From the IMG/VR virus record IMGVR_UViG_3300050821_018287, positions 1 through 64,000 of that record: a stretch of DNA of 64,000 nt. The stretch is one strand, 5' to 3'. Positions 2,803 to 64,000 of this stretch are shown in pieces. Under the pieces are notes generated by a model. That model was not told the origin of the DNA. It was given only the letters and a program-made list of their open reading frames with translations, and did no database searches. Each line of letters begins with the position of its first letter. Positions within the stretch are counted from its first letter, which is position 1. Source of the DNA: a virus. A program made the position numbers and the translations under genes.

Positions 2803-3621
2803 CTACGAAGGCGCCGTCCACGCCTCCCAAATTGGGTACCCGCTCATCGGCATCCAGAAGTAGCCCCCAGCGCCCCAGCTCGTCCCCCACTGGTTGACGC
2901 CCTTGTAGAGCTGACGCCCTGCGTCGTAGCCGATGAGGAGGACTCCGTGACCACCGTGGAGCGCCTCCTTCGACGGATCCGGCACCGGCAGCACCCCGCC
3001 CGCGCCCAGGCCCTCGAAGGAGTCGTAGACGGGAATTGCAATCGCAATGGGGAGGCGCGCGTTGAGGACGGCCATCCCATTCTTCGGGTCGTCCAAGTCC
3101 ACCATCGTCGGCTGGCCGATCCGGTATTCCACCGCCGCAGCGTCGGCGATGTTGGGGATGGGCTCGGCGGGATCCTGGTCGTAGGGCATGTCCGTCTCCG
3201 GGCACACCCCGTACGCCTGGAGCACGGCAAACTCGTCGGCCATCGTCGCCCCCGAGTCCGCGGGGAACGTCCCCTCACCCATCCTCGTCCGCGCGTACAG
3301 GTACGCTGGGGAGAGCCGGAGCGGGAGCGGCACCGGCACCATCCCCTCCTTCCACTCCAGCGCCGCCATCTGGACCTCGCGGAACTGCGCGGTGGCGAAG
3401 CCGGTGCACGCACCCTCCCCGCCCTGATTCCGGATGCCCGCGAAGAAGGGGGAGAGATCCGCCCCAGCCGGCGGCGCCACCCCCATCGAGGCCGGGACCG
3501 GCGACGGCAGGCCCTTCGCCCAGCGATCCATCGACGCCTTCACGAGTGGGTGGTTCAGCGGCGACGGGCGCAGCTTGTAGGTGTGTTCCGAAGTCCCGAG
3601 GGGACGGTGGGCGAAGTGCAT
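2803..3621 (-). CDS. Papain-like (C1A) cysteine peptidase
   Basis: The 272-residue protein has all parts of the C1 catalytic machinery in order: RNQGGEGACTGFA with oxyanion Gln66 and nucleophile Cys72, LHGGHGVLLIGYD with His225, and GVNQWGTSWGAGGYF with Asn243. No signal peptide or long propeptide is seen. It is the last gene of the leftward late region, 12 nt after a membrane protein gene. Phages rarely carry C1A peptidases; possible jobs are processing of virion proteins, attack on host proteins or help in lysis. Confidence 0.85.
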   Translation of the reverse strand: MHFAHRPLGTSEHTYKLRPSPLNHPLVKASMDRWAKGLPSPVPASMGVAPPAGADLSPFFAGIRNQGGEGACTGFATAQFREVQMAALEWKEGMVPVPLPLRLSPAYLYARTRMGEGTFPADSGATMADEFAVLQAYGVCPETDMPYDQDPAEPIPNIADAAAVEYRIGQPTMVDLDDPKNGMAVLNARLPIAIAIPVYDSFEGLGAGGVLPVPDPSKEALHGGHGVLLIGYDAGRQLYKGVNQWGTSWGAGGYFWMPMSGYPIWEAWTAPS

Positions 3622-50023: not shown

Positions 50024-51544
50024 CTACCTCACCGTCAAGTTGCCGGGGAGCACCGACACCTTCTCCGCGCCCATTCGGATGCCCTCGCGCGCGAACCACG
50101 CCGCCATCATCCGGTCCGGCGTGTGGCCGTCGGGCTTGTAGAACAGCATGTCCTGGATCCACACCGCCACTTCCTTCTCCACCTTCCCCTGCCCCAGCAC
50201 GTTCGGCGGCGGGCACATGATGGGGCCGGTGGAGGGGATGGCCCATTTCCCCTGGCTCATCTCCGCGGCGATGGACTCGATGCCGAATTCCGGGTGCGCC
50301 TTGTTCCGGCCGGTGGTGTGGGCCCGGAGCGGAAGCGCGGCCTGGTTGCGGGTGAACTGGAGGATGAAGTCCTGGGCGGCGTTGTTCTCCACGACGACGA
50401 AGGAGAAGAAGCGCCGGTTGACGTCGATGATGCGATCCACAATCTCCGGCCCGGTCCACTTCCCCGCGAGGATCTCCAGCGGCACCCGCGTCTGGTCCGG
50501 CAAGAGGAGGAGCGTGAAGAACACGGTCCAGTCCGCCGCCGCGTGCTGCTGAACCGCGAGGTCCACCCCCGTGTACGTCTTACACCCGGGGGGCATCGTC
50601 TGGAGCCCGTAGCACTGGAGCCCATTCCACAGGGCGAAATTCTTGAACTTCACGGGCGCGTCCGCCCCCGCGGCGATGCACCGGTCAATCCACTCACGCT
50701 TGAAGCGGGCCTCGGCGTCGTCCCGCGCCAGGCACAGAAACTGCCGCGCGAATTCGATCGGCGGCATGATGGCCTTCTTCGCCGCAATCCGCTCCTCCGG
50801 CCAGGCCGCCTTCCACCGCGGCTTCCCCTCGTTGTCCACGACGGGGTACCGGAAGCTGGACCAGCCCGGCGACTTCGCCAGCCGGTGCATCAAGTCTTCC
50901 GGATGGAAGGCGGTGCCGACGAAGATGATTCGGGCGTCCTTCGTGAGCCGGCCTTCGAGGGTGGCGTGGAACCAGTCGTACAAGTCCTGCATCGCCGTGG
51001 CGGTCCGGCAATTCTCGAAGTCGAGGATGTCGTCGAGGATGAGCCTGTCAATACGGGCGCCGAGGATGGTGCCGTGGACGCCCACCGCCTGGACGCTGGG
51101 ATCCTTCGAGCGGTTCCCCACCACGTAGAGCTGCTGGTTGGTCCAGGGCGTGGCCGGGCGCAGCTCCGGGAAAACCTCGTGCAGCTCCGGGCTCGTCTCG
51201 ATGTACTGCCCCACCATCCTCACCAGCTTCTCCGACTGCTTGTAGGCGTTGGAGACGATGGCGCAGCGCAACGTCGGGTCTTTCCCCAACTCGTGCAGCG
51301 TCCGGGCGATGGAGAGCTGAGTGGTCTTCCCGTGCTCGACCGCGCTCCAGAGGATGAGGCGGTTGTTCTTGTCCGCCAGCTCGTGCCACGCCTGGTGCAC
51401 CGGGGCCTGACGCAAGGGTCGCCCCGTCTTCTCGTCGCGCATGACGGCGGTGACGAAGGAGTTGATGTCGGTCCGCGCGTGGCGGAAGACGAGCGCGCGC
51501 GGGCTTCGGTCCAGCGGTGTCGTGAGGAGCGGGGAGAAGCTCAT
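50024..51544 (-). CDS. Terminase large subunit
   Basis: The 506-residue protein has an ATPase part with Walker A-like SAVEHGKTT (about 67-75) and Walker B LILDDILD (Asp171-Asp172; the usual Asp-Glu is replaced by Asp-Asp). The coupling motif VGTAFHPEDL follows. The RNase-H-like nuclease has TYTGVDLA (Asp328) and VVVENNAAQDF (Glu386). This motor cuts and pumps DNA into the head. It overlaps the preceding small gene by 4 nt. Confidence 0.85.
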   Translation of the reverse strand: MSFSPLLTTPLDRSPRALVFRHARTDINSFVTAVMRDEKTGRPLRQAPVHQAWHELADKNNRLILWSAVEHGKTTQLSIARTLHELGKDPTLRCAIVSNAYKQSEKLVRMVGQYIETSPELHEVFPELRPATPWTNQQLYVVGNRSKDPSVQAVGVHGTILGARIDRLILDDILDFENCRTATAMQDLYDWFHATLEGRLTKDARIIFVGTAFHPEDLMHRLAKSPGWSSFRYPVVDNEGKPRWKAAWPEERIAAKKAIMPPIEFARQFLCLARDDAEARFKREWIDRCIAAGADAPVKFKNFALWNGLQCYGLQTMPPGCKTYTGVDLAVQQHAAADWTVFFTLLLLPDQTRVPLEILAGKWTGPEIVDRIIDVNRRFFSFVVVENNAAQDFILQFTRNQAALPLRAHTTGRNKAHPEFGIESIAAEMSQGKWAIPSTGPIMCPPPNVLGQGKVEKEVAVWIQDMLFYKPDGHTPDRMMAAWFAREGIRMGAEKVSVLPGNLTVR

Positions 51545-51813
51545 TCCAGCGAGCCCACCGTGGGGAGCCGCGGGGAGCACGCCCAACGACGACACAGCGA
51601 CAGCCTCCCCGCCAACGCGTGGGTGTGAGGGATGGCGCCGATGGGGTTGACGTCGGTGTGACGGGAGACGAGGTGGCGAAGGAGATCGTCCGCGTCCTCC
51701 CGCGTCATCTTCATCTCGTTCAGCTTCCCCTCGATCGGCTCCCACCCGCTCATCATCAGGAGCGCATCCAGCTCGTCGAGGAGCGGCGCCGCGAGGACAG
51801 GGTGAAAGCTCAC
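51541..51813 (-). CDS. Small hypothetical protein before terminase
   Basis: The GTG at 51813 with GAGGGG upstream gives 90 residues; a GTG at 51825 is possible. The product contains LLDELDALLMMSGWEPIEGK and a His-rich DDLLRHLVSRHTDVN. It is coupled to the large terminase gene. Unknown. Confidence 0.55.
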   Translation of the reverse strand: MSFHPVLAAPLLDELDALLMMSGWEPIEGKLNEMKMTREDADDLLRHLVSRHTDVNPIGAIPHTHALAGRLSLCRRWACSPRLPTVGSLE

Positions 51814-58437: not shown

Positions 58438-58971
58438 CTAGGGGGAAACGCCCCGCCAGATGACGTGGACGTTGGGGAAGGTGGCACAGTCGCGACCCAC
58501 CCCCAACGGGTTCCCCGGCGCCCCATGTGTAACGCGCCCCTTCAGGAATCGGAGCTGAGGCCCTCCGGCCAGCTCCCGGTAGGGCTCGATGTACTTGTGC
58601 CACCAGGCGCGATCCGTCCAGGAGGGGAGGTGCGCGACGACGAGCTTGCACCCGAGGCTCAGCTCGCGCATCGCCTTCTCCAACCACTCGCCGATGTTGG
58701 AGTAGGGCGGGTTGAGGAAAACGCGGTGGCCAACCCACGACTGGACGAGCCCGTTGTCCGCCTCTCCGTACCACCGTCCGATGAGCTGCGCACTGAAGCA
58801 CTCCGCCGAGGCGCACGGGTCCAACGTGAAGCGAAACTCGTCGTGGAGGGGAATGAGCACCTCGCGCGGAGTGAATTGGTAGTCGAGATCCGTCACCAAC
58901 GGGATCGCCGGCTCCAGGAGCGAGAGCTGCTCCCCCTTCAGGATCGGGCCAGGGTTTGCTGTGTCACCCAC
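58438..58971 (-). CDS. DNA N6-adenine methyltransferase (phage Dam-like)
   Basis: The 177-residue protein has FTLDPCASAECFSAQL (phage N6-methylase family start, D-P-C), the catalytic motif VFLNPPYSNIGEWLEKAM (N-P-P-Y), VVAHLPSWTDRAWWH, and LRFLKGRVTHGA. This size and motif order is that of phage adenine methylases, which protect DNA from host restriction. A GTG at 58971 overlaps the previous gene by 34 nt. Confidence 0.8.
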   Translation of the reverse strand: MGDTANPGPILKGEQLSLLEPAIPLVTDLDYQFTPREVLIPLHDEFRFTLDPCASAECFSAQLIGRWYGEADNGLVQSWVGHRVFLNPPYSNIGEWLEKAMRELSLGCKLVVAHLPSWTDRAWWHKYIEPYRELAGGPQLRFLKGRVTHGAPGNPLGVGRDCATFPNVHVIWRGVSP

Positions 58972-59168
58972 GCGACTGCCTCCTCAACAACGTCCTTCCG
59001 GTAGAGGATCTCCCTCGTCCCGTCATTCCCCCGGCGCGTCATCCTCATCGCCGACAGCTCCTCCGGGCTCATCCACGACTGCCGATACAACGCCGCTCGC
59101 AACGAGAAGACGCTGACCTCGTACACCGCCGCTGCAACCGCCAGCGTCATCCACTCGATTTCAGCCAT
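58938..59168 (-). CDS. Small helix-turn-helix-like protein
   Basis: The ATG at 59168 gives 76 residues with a helical N-terminus (AVAAAVYEVSVFSLRAALYR) and REILYRKDVVEEAVAWV, resembling excisionase or MerR-type small DNA-binding proteins. It overlaps both neighbours. May regulate the block or bind DNA for the methylase. Confidence 0.5.
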   Translation of the reverse strand: MAEIEWMTLAVAAAVYEVSVFSLRAALYRQSWMSPEELSAMRMTRRGNDGTREILYRKDVVEEAVAWVTQQTLARS

Positions 59169-59689
59169 GGCCTGACGATCGCCAAGAGGTCTTCCGGACT
59201 TTGGCCCGCGTTCAGCTCCAGCCGCCTCTCGAAAGTCTCGGCGAAGCGCGCGGATTTCGTCTTGCGGCCCTTCACCCAGGACGGATTCTGATTGCTGCCC
59301 CGACGCAACCGGCGCCGGTGCACCTCCTCCTCGTCCGCGAAAAGGAGTACGCACCTCAAGACCGTCGGTGGGCAGCTCAGCAGAACGTTGCGATTGTCGA
59401 AGTAGCGGACCACCTTCGCGTTGGAGAAGCGATCCCCGTCGAAGATGGTGAGCGTGCAACGCTGCGCGAGAAACTCCGACCAGAAGTCCAGCGCCTTCCC
59501 GACTCCGTTGTAGGGTACGGTGTCCGCGCCGTCGAAAGTCGCGCCCGTGTAATGGCCTCCGGCACAGACCGTAGGACCCACCGTCCACTTCGGCTTAGAG
59601 ACGATCGTCGAGTTGGACTCCAGGAGTCCCTTCACCAGCGTCGTCTTCCCCACGCCCGGCTCACCCACCACCCAGAGGATCTGGTTCAC
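59147..59689 (-). CDS. P-loop kinase, candidate modified-base kinase
   Basis: The 180-residue protein has a Walker A loop WVVGEPGVGKTTLVKGL, a second motif CTLTIFDGDRFSNAKV and an Arg-rich lid (EEEVHRRRLRRGSNQ, then GRKTKSARFAE). It looks like a small nucleotide or DNA-base kinase. In phage thymine-hypermodification clusters such kinases phosphorylate hydroxymethyl bases in DNA. The neighbouring TET/JBP-like and transferase-like genes favour that role. Confidence 0.6.
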   Translation of the reverse strand: MNQILWVVGEPGVGKTTLVKGLLESNSTIVSKPKWTVGPTVCAGGHYTGATFDGADTVPYNGVGKALDFWSEFLAQRCTLTIFDGDRFSNAKVVRYFDNRNVLLSCPPTVLRCVLLFADEEEVHRRRLRRGSNQNPSWVKGRKTKSARFAETFERRLELNAGQSPEDLLAIVRPWLKSSG

Positions 59690-60111
59690 GGTTGCCTCCG
59701 CCGGGAGTCGAAGCCCTGTTTGAAAGGAGACTTTCTACGTTCGTCCGGACCCGCCTTGAACGCTCCCGGCGACGCCTGCCGGCCACGATTTGCCGCCGAG
59801 ATCTTAGCCCGCGCCTCTGGTGAATGCTTTCGCCCGCGCTGCGCTGTGCTCATCCGCAGCCGCGTCTCCGGTCGAATGACCTTCCCCCGATGGTGGTGAC
59901 TCTGGTGGCAAGACCGGTGGCACAAAGCCCAATTGTTCGGCGTGTCGTTGTCGTGGTTGTGGTCCTTGTGGTGAACGACGGGCTCCAACGGATCGCGAAA
60001 GGGCGGGCCTACCTCCACGACTCCGCCGCAAAAGAAACAGACCCAAGGACCGAAGCCCATCGTTCGAAAGAACAGCCACCAACCCGAGAACGTATGCCGC
60101 TTACCGGACAA
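59686..60111 (-). CDS. HNH homing endonuclease with NUMOD-type repeats
   Basis: The TTG at 60111 lies 6 nt after AAAGGAG, giving 141 residues. The HNH core is WVCFFCGG ... VVHHKDHNHDNDTPNNWALC then HRSCHQSHH. Two NUMOD3-like segments follow (RLRMSTAQRGRKHSPEARAK, ISAANRGRQASPGAF), as in homing nucleases of T4-like phages. It sits within the modification block and could have carried DNA there. Confidence 0.75.
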   Translation of the reverse strand: MSGKRHTFSGWWLFFRTMGFGPWVCFFCGGVVEVGPPFRDPLEPVVHHKDHNHDNDTPNNWALCHRSCHQSHHHRGKVIRPETRLRMSTAQRGRKHSPEARAKISAANRGRQASPGAFKAGPDERRKSPFKQGFDSRRRQP

Positions 60112-61030
60112 GGAGGGCTCCTTTGTCTCGGTAGACCTTGAGACGCTCAGAATCGACCCCTGACCAACCACCCAGCTCTCCGAGATAGTCCACAGGAAAC
60201 GATTCGAGCCGAGCCTGCTGCATACGGTCGCCACACTCAGCGACGTGGCTCATTTGGAGATCGATGTCCGTCCCGGAATAGTAATGCCCGCGACAGAGAG
60301 AGTTGAAGTCGCAAAGCGCGGTCTCGAATTGGTCGAGCCCGGAGAAGAGAACCGCCTTCAGCGCCTCAGCGTAAGCTTGCTTCTGGATGTCAGGATTCGC
60401 AAGACACTCCTGGATGGAAAGCCCGCACACCCGCGCGAGCCCCGCGTAAGGCCCCGTCTCCTCCCCACCGCGCGGTTCCCCAATGTCCGGAGCGACGATG
60501 AGCGCGCCGTGAACGTTTTTAAGAAGGTCCGACCACTTGTAGCTAGCCCAGCCCCCGTTGCCCGGGATCTGCTGAAAAGCGAAGCGCGCTCGGTCCCAAC
60601 CCTGAGTGCTCGAAACGCTGTCGCAACAAGCCTCCACCCACCGATCGAATTGTCCGCCTCGGGTGAAGTGGAAGGCGTAGTTGATGTGGAGGCGCGCCTT
60701 GTCGTTGCCGCGGAAGCCGCGCCGCTCCACTCCCGTCGGGAGACCCAAAAGTGGCTCGTGGATCTCCGTCGGCTCCGGATACTTCGTCCAAACGATCTCC
60801 GCCGAACGGAGGTTGTAGAAGGTGACGTAGAGGAACGTCCTCCACAGCGCGGTGTTCAGCGGAAGCTTCTCCAGTTCGTAGAGCCGGCGCAGCACCGGAT
60901 ACGTCGGGTCCAAGTCGCCTGACCAGAGCTGCGTCTTGGAGAAAGTGCAGAAGTCGACCCACAAATGCTCACGCGTGATCGCTCGCTCGCCGAAGAAGAC
61001 AAACTGCTTCCCCTTGTCGGCCATCGGCAT
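60101..61030 (-). CDS. Amino-acid:DNA transferase / aGPT-pyrophosphorylase-like protein
   Basis: The 309-residue protein has an N-terminal helical part (YPVLRRLYELEKLPLNTALW, then RTFLYVTFYNLRSAEIVWTK), GNGGWASYKWSDLLKNVHG, TGPYAGLARVCG and ALCDFNSLCRGHYYSGTDID. These recall enzymes that attach amino acids or polyamines to phosphorylated hydroxymethyl bases in phage DNA (aGPT-PPlase/AADT and HMUDK-helical group). Family match is by motif memory. It shares one base with the dioxygenase stop (TGATG). Confidence 0.5.
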   Translation of the reverse strand: MPMADKGKQFVFFGERAITREHLWVDFCTFSKTQLWSGDLDPTYPVLRRLYELEKLPLNTALWRTFLYVTFYNLRSAEIVWTKYPEPTEIHEPLLGLPTGVERRGFRGNDKARLHINYAFHFTRGGQFDRWVEACCDSVSSTQGWDRARFAFQQIPGNGGWASYKWSDLLKNVHGALIVAPDIGEPRGGEETGPYAGLARVCGLSIQECLANPDIQKQAYAEALKAVLFSGLDQFETALCDFNSLCRGHYYSGTDIDLQMSHVAECGDRMQQARLESFPVDYLGELGGWSGVDSERLKVYRDKGALLVR

Positions 61031-61842
61031 CACGGCTTCTTGCCTCGCTTCTCGGAGCGGATCGTACCCAGTCTCCGCGCCCGGTCCAACTCCTCGGCCG
61101 GCGACTGGCAATGGCACATCCCCCGAAGCGAGTAGAAAACGACGGTGTAACGGTAGGAGCGCGGGGAGAGACTCCGGATGGGTGTCACCCCGTGGAGGAG
61201 GGAAGACCCGTCGAAGAGGATGAGCGAGCCGGGAATGAACTTGAAACCAATGCCGAGCTGAGGCACCGCGAGGTGCCCGCCGTCAATGTCCTTCGTGAAG
61301 GCAAACATCGCACTCCAGAAGCCCGGGAAGTTGCCCGCGTCGCGGTGGTAATAGAGCTGGTTGTTCCAGTTTGCGATCCCCGAGGTGTAGATGCTCCCCG
61401 GTAGCACCCACCCCGGCTGCACCTTCTCCCAAATGAGCTGGGCCTGCGCCACGTACTGCTCCGGCACCTCCTTCTCAAAGTACCGGGAGGCGAGCGACGC
61501 GAGAGAGCAGATCTTCGCATGCGCCTCCGGGTTCTCCATCGCCACCACCGAGCAATAGCAGTAGTCCTGGCGCAGAGGATTGCGGGGCATGAAGCCCACG
61601 GTCCTGTCCTGGTGTCGCAGACCCGACGTCCGGTAGGCGCGGTGGTAGCGAAGCGCTTGAAACGCCTCCACCATCCCCGAAAGGTTTTCTTCCGGCTGGA
61701 GGTAGGCGATGCGGAGGGTGTTCTCCTCGTAGATGAGGGTGGGCTTGTCGATGAGCACCGCGAAGTCTTGCTCATGCGCGGGGACCTTCCGCGCGAGCGC
61801 CTTCACGTCGACTTCAATTCGCTGGAGTCGTACGTGTTGCAT
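61030..61842 (-). CDS. TET/JBP-like 2-oxoglutarate/Fe(II) dioxygenase
   Basis: The 270-residue protein has an N-terminal part with SGLRHQDRTVGFMPRNPLRQ, then WNNQLYYHRDAGNFPGFW (metal ligands His166 and Asp168), AMFAFTKDIDGGHLAVPQLG, LILFDGSSLLHGVTPI (His217) and RSYRYTVVFYS (2OG-binding Arg, 228 or 231). This is the TET/JBP pattern, whose members hydroxylate 5-methylcytosine or thymine in DNA. It overlaps the ParB-like gene by 29 nt and is followed directly by the transferase-like gene. Confidence 0.7.
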   Translation of the reverse strand: MQHVRLQRIEVDVKALARKVPAHEQDFAVLIDKPTLIYEENTLRIAYLQPEENLSGMVEAFQALRYHRAYRTSGLRHQDRTVGFMPRNPLRQDYCYCSVVAMENPEAHAKICSLASLASRYFEKEVPEQYVAQAQLIWEKVQPGWVLPGSIYTSGIANWNNQLYYHRDAGNFPGFWSAMFAFTKDIDGGHLAVPQLGIGFKFIPGSLILFDGSSLLHGVTPIRSLSPRSYRYTVVFYSLRGMCHCQSPAEELDRARRLGTIRSEKRGKKP

Positions 61843-62473
61843 CGAACAAGTCCAGCAGCTTGAGGACGGCCTCGGTATGGCTCTGGACCCCATGGGCTTC
61901 CATCACCGCTTTCAGCCGCGCCAACGCCACGTCATAGGCCGCACCCTCGAAGTAGAGGACGACTTGCTTGATGTTGGCGGAGAGAAAACCCGGGAGAAGC
62001 TCCGCCGGAGTCGCCCCCACCTCCGTCTTCGGAGGCTCCACCGAGCGGAGGAGCGCGTCCACATCCGTCGGCTCGTAGCCAGTGCCAGCGAGGAGATCCC
62101 CCGTGTTGAGCCGGCCCAGCATCTCCGCCAGCGCCTTCTCGTCCCACCCGCCGACCTCGGTGAGCCGGTTGGAGGCGATGACATACGCTTCGGCCTCGGT
62201 GTCGTCCTTCGAAGCCCACCCGGTCAGGACTGGAACGAACCACCGGCCGTCCCTCACCTCCACCCCCGCTGGCACCTCACCCCGCTTCTTCAGCTCCAGA
62301 AGCGCCTCCCGCCGGCCGTGCCCCGCCACCATCCGCCCCGTCCGCTGGTCCACCACGATCGGCTCGGTAAAGCCGAAGCGGCGAATGGAAGCCTGGATGT
62401 CGGCCTGTGCGTGAGTCTTCGGGTTGCGCTCGGCCGTCTTGAGCGAATCCAAGTCTGTCGCGACGATCTTCAT
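61814..62473 (-). CDS. ParB-like nuclease-domain protein
   Basis: The 219-residue protein has a ParB/Srx-type domain: DLDSLKTAERNPKTHAQADI, then RRFGFTEPIVVDQRTGRMVA, the box GHGRREALLELK, and AYVIASNRLTEVGGWDE. It lacks the helix-turn-helix arm of partition ParB. Such proteins accompany DNA methylases and base modification enzymes in phages, possibly as DNA-guiding or CTP/ATP-binding subunits. Confidence 0.8.
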   Translation of the reverse strand: MKIVATDLDSLKTAERNPKTHAQADIQASIRRFGFTEPIVVDQRTGRMVAGHGRREALLELKKRGEVPAGVEVRDGRWFVPVLTGWASKDDTEAEAYVIASNRLTEVGGWDEKALAEMLGRLNTGDLLAGTGYEPTDVDALLRSVEPPKTEVGATPAELLPGFLSANIKQVVLYFEGAAYDVALARLKAVMEAHGVQSHTEAVLKLLDLFDATRTTPAN

Positions 62474-64000
62474 GCTGCCCCCTGAAGTTGTCCGCCTTCA
62501 ATCCTCCACTTCACAGTGGGCCCGAGCTGGAGGCGGCCGGCAATGTAGTCGGAGTGGGTGATGACTACCACCGCCCGCTCCTTTGCGAGGTCCACCAGGA
62601 CCGCCGCCAGAGCGTCCTGCCCGTCCACGTAGAGCGAGTCAAACACCTCGTCGAAGAAGAGGGTGCCAGCGCCCAGGCCACCGGAGAGTGCGCCGAGAGC
62701 GAAGAGGAGCGCCACATCAATCCGCCGCCGCTCCCCCGCTGACGCGCCACGGTAGCCCTCCCCGCCGCCAGCACCCTCCACCTCCAAACTGATTGCATCC
62801 GTCACCCCACCCGTCTTCTTCTCGGTGTAGGACTTGAGGCGGACCGAGAGCGCCGGGACGGGGCCCGCCGCCGTGACGCGCGGGGCACCGGAGATCCGCG
62901 CGAGCCAGCCGTTGGCCGCCGCCTCGACTGCGCCGAGCGCCCTCCCGAGGATGTGTGCGCGCACCCCCTTCGTCCCCAAGACAACCTCCACCGCCCCCAA
63001 CTCCTGCAACGTCTTCTCCAGAGTACCCGCCTCGGTGTCCGCGTCAGCAAATTGCTGCTTTGTCTTTTTCAGATCCGCTTCGGCCTGGGCCAGAGCCCGG
63101 TACGCGCGGTCCAGCTCACCCTTCCGGCGAGCGTGCGCAGCCACCCCCGCCTCCGCGGAACGAATCCGCTCACGCAACTTCGCATGGCGCTCGTTGAGCG
63201 CGGCGAGAATCCCGTCCAGCTCCTTGAGCTGTTCGTCGATCTCCAGGACAGCCTCGACGCTCTTGGCCTGGGTCGCCTCAGCCTCCTTCTTCAGCTTCCC
63301 GATCGCCTGGACCAGATTCCCCCTGAGTTTCGCGGGAATCTCCTGCCCGCAGGCGGAACACGTGCCTGTGTCCCCAAGCTTCTGGAGCTGACGCTTGAGC
63401 GCGTCCATGTTGGCCTGAACGCCGCCGTCCGAGCTGCGCAGGTTCATCGCCTTCGAGTACTCCGCGCGCCGGCTCGCCTCCGTTTTGTCGATGGCCTTCT
63501 TCACCTCCGTCGCCTGCGTCTGAAGCGCGAGAGGAGATTCCGTCTCCTCATCCCCGAAACTAAGCGGCGGAACCGAGGCCCCGGTGACCGTCTCCGTGCA
63601 CTGAAGCACCGACCGCGCCGCACCCTTCACCCGCTCGTCGAGGATTGCGGCCTGACGCCGGCACTCGTCCCACTGTCGCGTCGCCGCCTTCAGATCTGTC
63701 CTACACTTCTCCAAGGCCACATCGAAGCGCCCGAGCTGGAGGAGCCCCTCCAGAAAACGCTTCCGCTCCGAGTCGGTGGCCTCAGTGAAGCGTGCCGCAT
63801 CCGACGAGCTGAACACGTGCCTCCAGCGCCAAGTCTCGAAGGAGCCGATCCGCTCCTCCAGGGCTTCCTGCGCCTTGGAGTTGGTTTCGTACTCCGCCGA
63901 GGGCCCGTCATTCGTCGACCAGTCCAGCGCGGATCTCCCGCCCGCAGTCCTCGTCCGCGTCACCCCCAACCCCTCCGCGAGGAGCCGGAGCATTCCCGCC
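62470..64000 (-). CDS. SbcC/Rad50 (gp46)-like recombination ATPase, N-terminus outside window
   Basis: The visible 507+ residues hold the coiled-coil arms with a central zinc-hook CSACGQE (near residue 230 of the visible part) and the C-terminal ATPase half: signature YRGASAGERRRIDVALLFAL, Walker B LFFDEVFDSLYVDGQ and the switch AVVVITHSDYIAG. The Walker A part is beyond 64000. With an SbcD/gp47 nuclease it would process DNA ends in recombination or host DNA degradation. Confidence 0.85.
   Translation of the reverse strand, partial: AGMLRLLAEGLGVTRTRTAGGRSALDWSTNDGPSAEYETNSKAQEALEERIGSFETWRWRHVFSSSDAARFTEATDSERKRFLEGLLQLGRFDVALEKCRTDLKAATRQWDECRRQAAILDERVKGAARSVLQCTETVTGASVPPLSFGDEETESPLALQTQATEVKKAIDKTEASRRAEYSKAMNLRSSDGGVQANMDALKRQLQKLGDTGTCSACGQEIPAKLRGNLVQAIGKLKKEAEATQAKSVEAVLEIDEQLKELDGILAALNERHAKLRERIRSAEAGVAAHARRKGELDRAYRALAQAEADLKKTKQQFADADTEAGTLEKTLQELGAVEVVLGTKGVRAHILGRALGAVEAAANGWLARISGAPRVTAAGPVPALSVRLKSYTEKKTGGVTDAISLEVEGAGGGEGYRGASAGERRRIDVALLFALGALSGGLGAGTLFFDEVFDSLYVDGQDALAAVLVDLAKERAVVVITHSDYIAGRLQLGPTVKWRIEGGQLQGAA

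Follow-up and report, generated by a model that had tools for sequence, protein, structure and literature searches.

Thymine hypermodification systems made of a ParB-like protein, a TET/JBP dioxygenase, an amino acid:DNA transferase (AADT) and a P-loop kinase were reportedly predicted by Iyer in 2013. Actinophages (Rhodococcus phage Tonitrus, Gordonia phages CaiB and LittleMunchkin, Mycobacterium phage Reprobate and Microbacterium phage Kozie) carry these families, mostly in the same order, as a compact stretch of genes close to the terminase, and their cassette has already been called a thymine hypermodification system in the paper on Tonitrus (PMC11955845). In Pseudomonas phage M6, 5-hydroxymethyl-2'-deoxyuridine (5-hydroxymethyl-dU) is made at the nucleotide level by a ThyA-type enzyme (gp58; the hydroxymethylase route), tailoring involves pyridoxal phosphate (PLP) and radical S-adenosylmethionine (radical SAM) enzymes, the DNA contains 5-(2-aminoethyl)-dU (PMC6449724), and we found no TET. 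In trypanosomes, JBP1 and JBP2 hydroxylate thymine in DNA, and the product is then glucosylated to base J. Here we analysed a cassette found in the first 64,000 bases (the window) of the 92,257-bp virus record IMGVR_UViG_3300050821_018287, which shares AADT and a P-loop DNA kinase with M6 and for which thymine hydroxylation in DNA is predicted as for base J, although followed by phosphorylation and amino acid transfer instead of glucosylation. With a probability of roughly 0.7, we believe that it encodes a post-replicative pathway of thymine hypermodification by hydroxylation, phosphorylation and aminoacylation. Apart from the choice of base, such a pathway was the claim of an original prediction made from the bare sequence, and Pfam profiles, alignments, structure models and conserved gene context support it. 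The cassette as such is not new; what is added is the complementary distribution of TET and hydroxymethylase genes, which points to thymine.

The four genes lie where the original prediction had placed them, leftward on the minus strand and tightly packed, and both coordinates and overlaps were confirmed (Table 1). The product of the gene at 60101 had been likened to aGPT-pyrophosphorylases as well as to AADTs, and only the latter part of that label stood. The protein matched the Pfam AADT profile PF18724 with 34.9 bits (cut-off 26.2), and its structure model (predicted local distance difference test, pLDDT, 92.9) matched the 5-phosphomethyl-dU (5-PmdU) glycinyltransferase 8z2m/8z2n with a Z score of 19.7 over 236 residues and a root-mean-square deviation of 2.8, the second-best match being a different protein with a Z of 9.2. 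Because AADT is the Pfam match and the glycinyltransferase fold dominates, the aGPT-pyrophosphorylase reading was rejected; nor did the model place the product in an unrelated family. The matched enzyme is gp46 of Pseudomonas phage PaMx11, or PUGT, the subject of Wen et al. 2024 to judge by that paper's title as given in PMC11946847. It has the same fold as the AADT of the studied phage, and the ERR and ETxxC motifs are conserved in both, with an identity of about 20% over the structural alignment. The AADT family profile, when compared with the PDB, retrieved 25qc, another AADT entry (E 6.7e-22), and 8z2m (E 1.7e-11), and all family-invariant residues are kept in the studied AADT. The fold and the neighbouring genes suggest that this protein transfers an amino acid, most likely glycine, to 5-PmdU.

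The TET/JBP protein scored 43 bits against PF12851 (cut-off 34.9), and an alignment with nine phage TETs showed that the invariant H183-R184-D185, H234 and R248 are kept, which is the complete His-x-Asp...His...Arg set that had been claimed for it. Its AlphaFold2 model (pLDDT 90.2) had NgTET1, CMD1, CcTET and TET2 as top Foldseek matches; the start may be an internal ATG near 61842, and the first 18 or so residues were poorly modelled. The predicted activity is oxidation of a 5-methyl group in DNA, of either thymine or 5-methylcytosine. The P-loop kinase was recovered by profile, with 29.4 bits against PF18751 (Ploopntkinase3; cut-off 27), and has an intact P-loop (GEPGVGKTT); GxPGxGK, D56 and G85xR87 are conserved across 25 aligned kinases. 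Its nearest relative, 40% identical, belongs to a ParB-TET-kinase-AADT locus (L135) that also carries a distant homologue of the Dam-type methylase of the studied phage. By its context, the protein is a putative 5-hydroxymethyl-dU kinase. A relative of M6 gp55, the helical partner HMUDK_hel, was not found in the record by BLAST.

The ParB-like assignment held with PHROG 620 (E 1.9e-34) and not with Pfam, where ParB_N (PF02195) scored 11.8 bits, below its cut-off of 26.3. Of 142 TET loci, 112 have a ParB gene immediately upstream of TET, and none of the seven hydroxymethylase-route loci has one; thus, this gene tracks the oxidation step in DNA and not the transfer step, and we infer that its product is a DNA-binding partner or loader of TET. 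A related phage (L175, a 91.8-kb contig with PolA, SbcD and SbcC in common with the studied phage) has SbcC-ParB-TET and neither AADT nor kinase, which shows that this front end can travel alone. About 2 kb past these genes (L175:12920-17394) there is a glycosyltransferase-looking gene that has no Pfam match and may indicate a base-J-like modification. A jumbo-size contig of 327 kb (L115, 14044-17446) carries two TET and three ParB-like genes; no TET/JBP was reported in the jumbo phages surveyed in PMC7824862. In public records (L002, L010, L011 and related ones), TETs are misnamed 'queuine tRNA-ribosyltransferase', and kinases 'terminase small subunit' or 'adenylate kinase'.

Relatives of the TET were found in 97 phage records, and the 17 AADT matches were all in actinophage records; a similar order of families precedes the terminase in the Tonitrus, LittleMunchkin, CaiB, Kozie, Reprobate and LilMcDreamy loci. 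In uncultivated viral contigs, for which a single-sequence TET query gave no match and an alignment query succeeded, there were 254 TET and 77 AADT relatives. All four families occurred together in 74 of 164 loci chosen by TET or AADT queries, a co-occurrence far beyond chance, and the commonest orders were ParB-TET-AADT-kinase (44 loci) and ParB-AADT-kinase-TET (19 loci).

The original prediction had noted that no cytosine-C5 methylase or deoxyuridine monophosphate (dUMP) hydroxymethylase was visible, and had left open whether thymine was the direct substrate or a methylase lay elsewhere. In the whole record, we found no C5-cytosine methyltransferase (C5-MTase) and no match to the ThyA family, which includes the dUMP hydroxymethylase of the M6 pathway. 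A census of 50 records with both TET and AADT (32 of at least 30 kb, six finished phage genomes) yielded no ThyA-family gene, and C5-MTase matches in eight records (six above cut-off); the six finished actinophage genomes that carry the cassette had no such match. Among ten AADT records lacking TET, as judged by a Tet_JBP model that gave no positive in control genomes yet matches the phage TET, the ThyA family was present in six, among them M6 and each of the five that reach 30 kb or more (0/50 versus 6/10, Fisher p 4e-6); a local TET model likewise detected none in the flanks. Since related contigs are not independent, the AADT tree matters more than this p value. In the tree, hydroxymethylase-route sequences were interspersed with those of the TET route, and its well-supported branches require four or more switches of route. 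The AADT of the studied phage grouped, with a support of 100, with four hydroxymethylase-route sequences (three of them identical) at 42-46% identity, and by BLAST their four loci encode M6-like PLP (34-52% identity), radical SAM (55-59%) and hydroxymethylase-like (31-45%) proteins, although the hydroxymethylase was not found in the short L095, one of these M6-type loci. The complementarity of TET and hydroxymethylase, together with these AADT relatives, suggests that TET most likely supplies 5-hydroxymethyl-dU by hydroxylating thymine directly in DNA, in place of the nucleotide-level hydroxymethylase step. The comparative evidence thus favours thymine over 5-methylcytosine as the TET substrate. 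We know of no experiment, and found none in the literature searched, that shows thymine to be a substrate of a phage TET/JBP enzyme.

According to the pathway that we prefer, TET/JBP would convert thymine in phage DNA to 5-hydroxymethyl-dU by hydroxylating its methyl group, with the ParB-like protein probably bringing TET to DNA or keeping it there. The P-loop kinase would then phosphorylate 5-hydroxymethyl-dU to 5-phosphomethyl-dU, and AADT would replace the phosphate by an amino acid (most likely glycine) attached through its amino group, which yields N-alpha-glycinylthymidine. In related loci there is often more. A further gene stands beside AADT in 73 of 78 TET+AADT loci: a flavin enzyme adjoins it in 55 (about 70%), an aspartyl/asparaginyl beta-hydroxylase-like gene replaces the flavin enzyme in 18 (for instance L053:5387-6538 and L011:2656-3759), and seven have an acetyltransferase-like (GNAT) gene in addition. 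The beta-hydroxylase-like gene is a candidate for extra tailoring of the amino-acid adduct. The solved phage 'Flavin-dependent lyase' (glycinyl-thymidine lyase; 8z2o/8z79), deposited with PaMx11 gp46, was matched by two of these flavin enzymes, with E values of 3.5e-4 and 3e-3. Such a fifth gene is usual and not universal, as five of the 78 loci, the studied phage among them, lack all these families. Models for FAD1, FAD2, X18 and GNAT had no match in the 92-kb record, nor did we find in it relatives of the flavin lyase or, by BLAST, of the M6-type radical SAM (gp53) and PLP (gp52) enzymes. Since the record has no flavin lyase, N-alpha-glycinylthymidine is the predicted end product. The modification presumably protects the phage DNA from host nucleases, in a variation on a defence already known from viruses.

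Several points weigh against this pathway, some of them bearing on whether cytosine could be the substrate instead. In that case, TET would oxidise 5-methylcytosine made by the host or by an undetected methylase, and kinase and AADT would decorate 5-hydroxymethylcytosine. The TET structures that matched our model are 5-methylcytosine oxidases, and some phage TETs reportedly have 5-methylcytosine as their substrate and a C5-MTase as companion (Burke, in 2021). The C5-MTase matches in the census point the same way, as does locus L135, whose kinase is similar and which encodes, on the opposite strand, a C5-MTase at a distance of roughly 1.6 kb from AADT; 5-methylcytosine could also come from a methylase of the host or be made by the product of a gene outside the possibly incomplete record. 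The characterised kinase profile PF18748 (HMUDK_HMUD1), one of the checks proposed along with the TET/JBP and AADT profiles that did match, is not among the Pfam matches of the kinase, whereas it does match M6 gp54. Moreover, most viral contigs are fragments, three of the hydroxymethylase-route loci are near-copies, the AADT tree was built quickly and places M6 at the tip of a very long branch, and the identity of the flavin lyases rests on the weak E values given above. Against the cytosine route stand the lack of a C5-MTase in the record and in the six finished genomes, the fold of the AADT, which is that of a 5-PmdU enzyme, and its nearest relatives, which lie in loci with a ThyA-type hydroxymethylase. 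On balance, we consider that route quite unlikely.

Two other explanations keep thymine as the substrate and differ in the end product. A radical SAM gene upstream of sbcC (Table 1) might tailor the adduct, so that glycinylthymidine would not be the final base. Some 15 bp separate the end of this gene from sbcC, which is on the same strand, and the position is just ahead of ParB-TET. BLAST gave no relative of the gene in 25 loci with related SbcC, and in M6-type phages thymine adducts are said to be tailored by radical SAM enzymes (Lee, in 2022). However, BLAST did not relate it to M6 gp53, and a match was obtained in only one of the 50 TET+AADT records, with a model that also scores the phage's own gene below cut-off; its phage homologues are in Bacteroides, archaeal and other phages, none of them among the TET or AADT matches listed. 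A tailoring role is thus tentatively possible, and the explanation as a whole unlikely. It could also be that 5-hydroxymethyl-dU is itself the end product and that kinase and AADT either have no activity or take part in a different reaction, as the SbcC-ParB-TET arrangement of L175 might suggest, but both proteins keep all their family-invariant residues and are encoded in one run of overlapping genes, which makes this highly improbable.

The window has a guanine plus cytosine content of about 66% and almost all its genes on the minus strand. From a point about 65.2 kb into the record, the genes read leftward as radical SAM, SbcC-like ATPase, ParB-like, TET/JBP, AADT, HNH/NUMOD3, P-loop kinase, a 74-residue open reading frame (ORF) and Dam methylase, so that ParB, TET, AADT and kinase are all within one gene run. 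The TET stop and the AADT start share bases (TGATG), which sets the latter at the ATG at 61030, and the GTG start of the kinase overlaps the stop of the HNH ORF. The HNH/NUMOD3 and Dam-type genes were absent from the original list. The former, in which HNH scored 18.5 bits, just under its cut-off of 21.4, lacked relatives among the other cassette loci compared and is a probable homing endonuclease gene inserted between AADT and kinase, outside the conserved cassette; the Dam-type methylase is a separate adenine modification. These two genes, the position beside sbcC, the absence of a flavin or other fifth gene and an AADT of another clade distinguish the locus from the actinophage cassette. 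The SbcC-like gene, upstream of the ParB gene, runs beyond the window edge. The cassette lies upstream of the terminase large subunit gene, at a distance of about 7 kb; a terminase scan gave one short relative only.

Table 1. Genes of the cassette and its surroundings (window positions unless the record is indicated)
Feature	Position	Strand	Basis
Radical SAM gene	record 64206-65180	-	PHROG 9298 E 2.7e-45
SbcC-like ATPase	62470..63993, on to ~64191 of record	-	PHROG 77 E 2.2e-38; N-terminal Walker A
ParB-like (Srx/ParB fold) protein, 219 aa	61814..62473	-	PHROG 620; TET partner gene
TET/JBP 2-oxoglutarate dioxygenase	61030..61893	-	PF12851
AADT/PUGT-like amino acid:DNA transferase	60101..61030 (longest ORF from 61117)	-	PF18724
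HNH + NUMOD3 ORF, probable homing endonuclease	59686..60234	-	NUMOD3 above cut-off
P-loop kinase, predicted 5-hydroxymethyl-dU DNA kinase	59147..59689	-	PF18751 Ploopntkinase3
74-aa ORF	58938..59162	-	no match in Pfam or PHROG
Dam-type N6-adenine methyltransferase	58438..58971	-	PF05869 56.1 bits; PHROG 111 E 1.5e-30
Terminase large subunit	50024..51745	-	PHROG 38 E 1.8e-61

Other genes of the record deserve mention. A family A DNA polymerase (record 72188-74737) carries a uracil-DNA-glycosylase domain at its N terminus. This domain was considered as a sign of hydroxymethyl-dU in DNA and dropped, because TET-less relatives have related polymerases, although the glycosylase part of these was not compared on its own. 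A second ParB-like gene (record 84332-84970) is above the Pfam ParB_N cut-off and has no TET beside it. There are also an array of small ORFs at 53-58 kb that resemble each other only weakly as paralogues, a gene for a cysteine protease of the papain family close to the low-coordinate end (window 2803-3621), and a DUF2201 metallopeptidase/VWA gene adjoining a MoxR-type AAA gene (record 88648-91480).

The complementary spread of TET and dUMP hydroxymethylase around one aminoacyltransferase family makes a specific and testable prediction, and culturable actinophages with the cassette (Tonitrus, CaiB, Kozie, Reprobate) are open to direct assay. In its widest form, the idea would be that phage TET/JBP proteins are DNA thymine hydroxylases repeatedly swapped with dUMP hydroxymethylases before a shared kinase-aminoacyltransferase back end, that the ParB-like protein is a dedicated TET loader, and that the radical SAM enzyme builds an unseen base derived from an amino acid; taken jointly, we regard these proposals as improbable. 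If the prediction on thymine alone is right, the cassette would represent a module that hydroxylates thymine at the DNA level and can be combined with different amino-acid chemistries, which would be useful for base labelling and would give insight into how phages evade nucleases.

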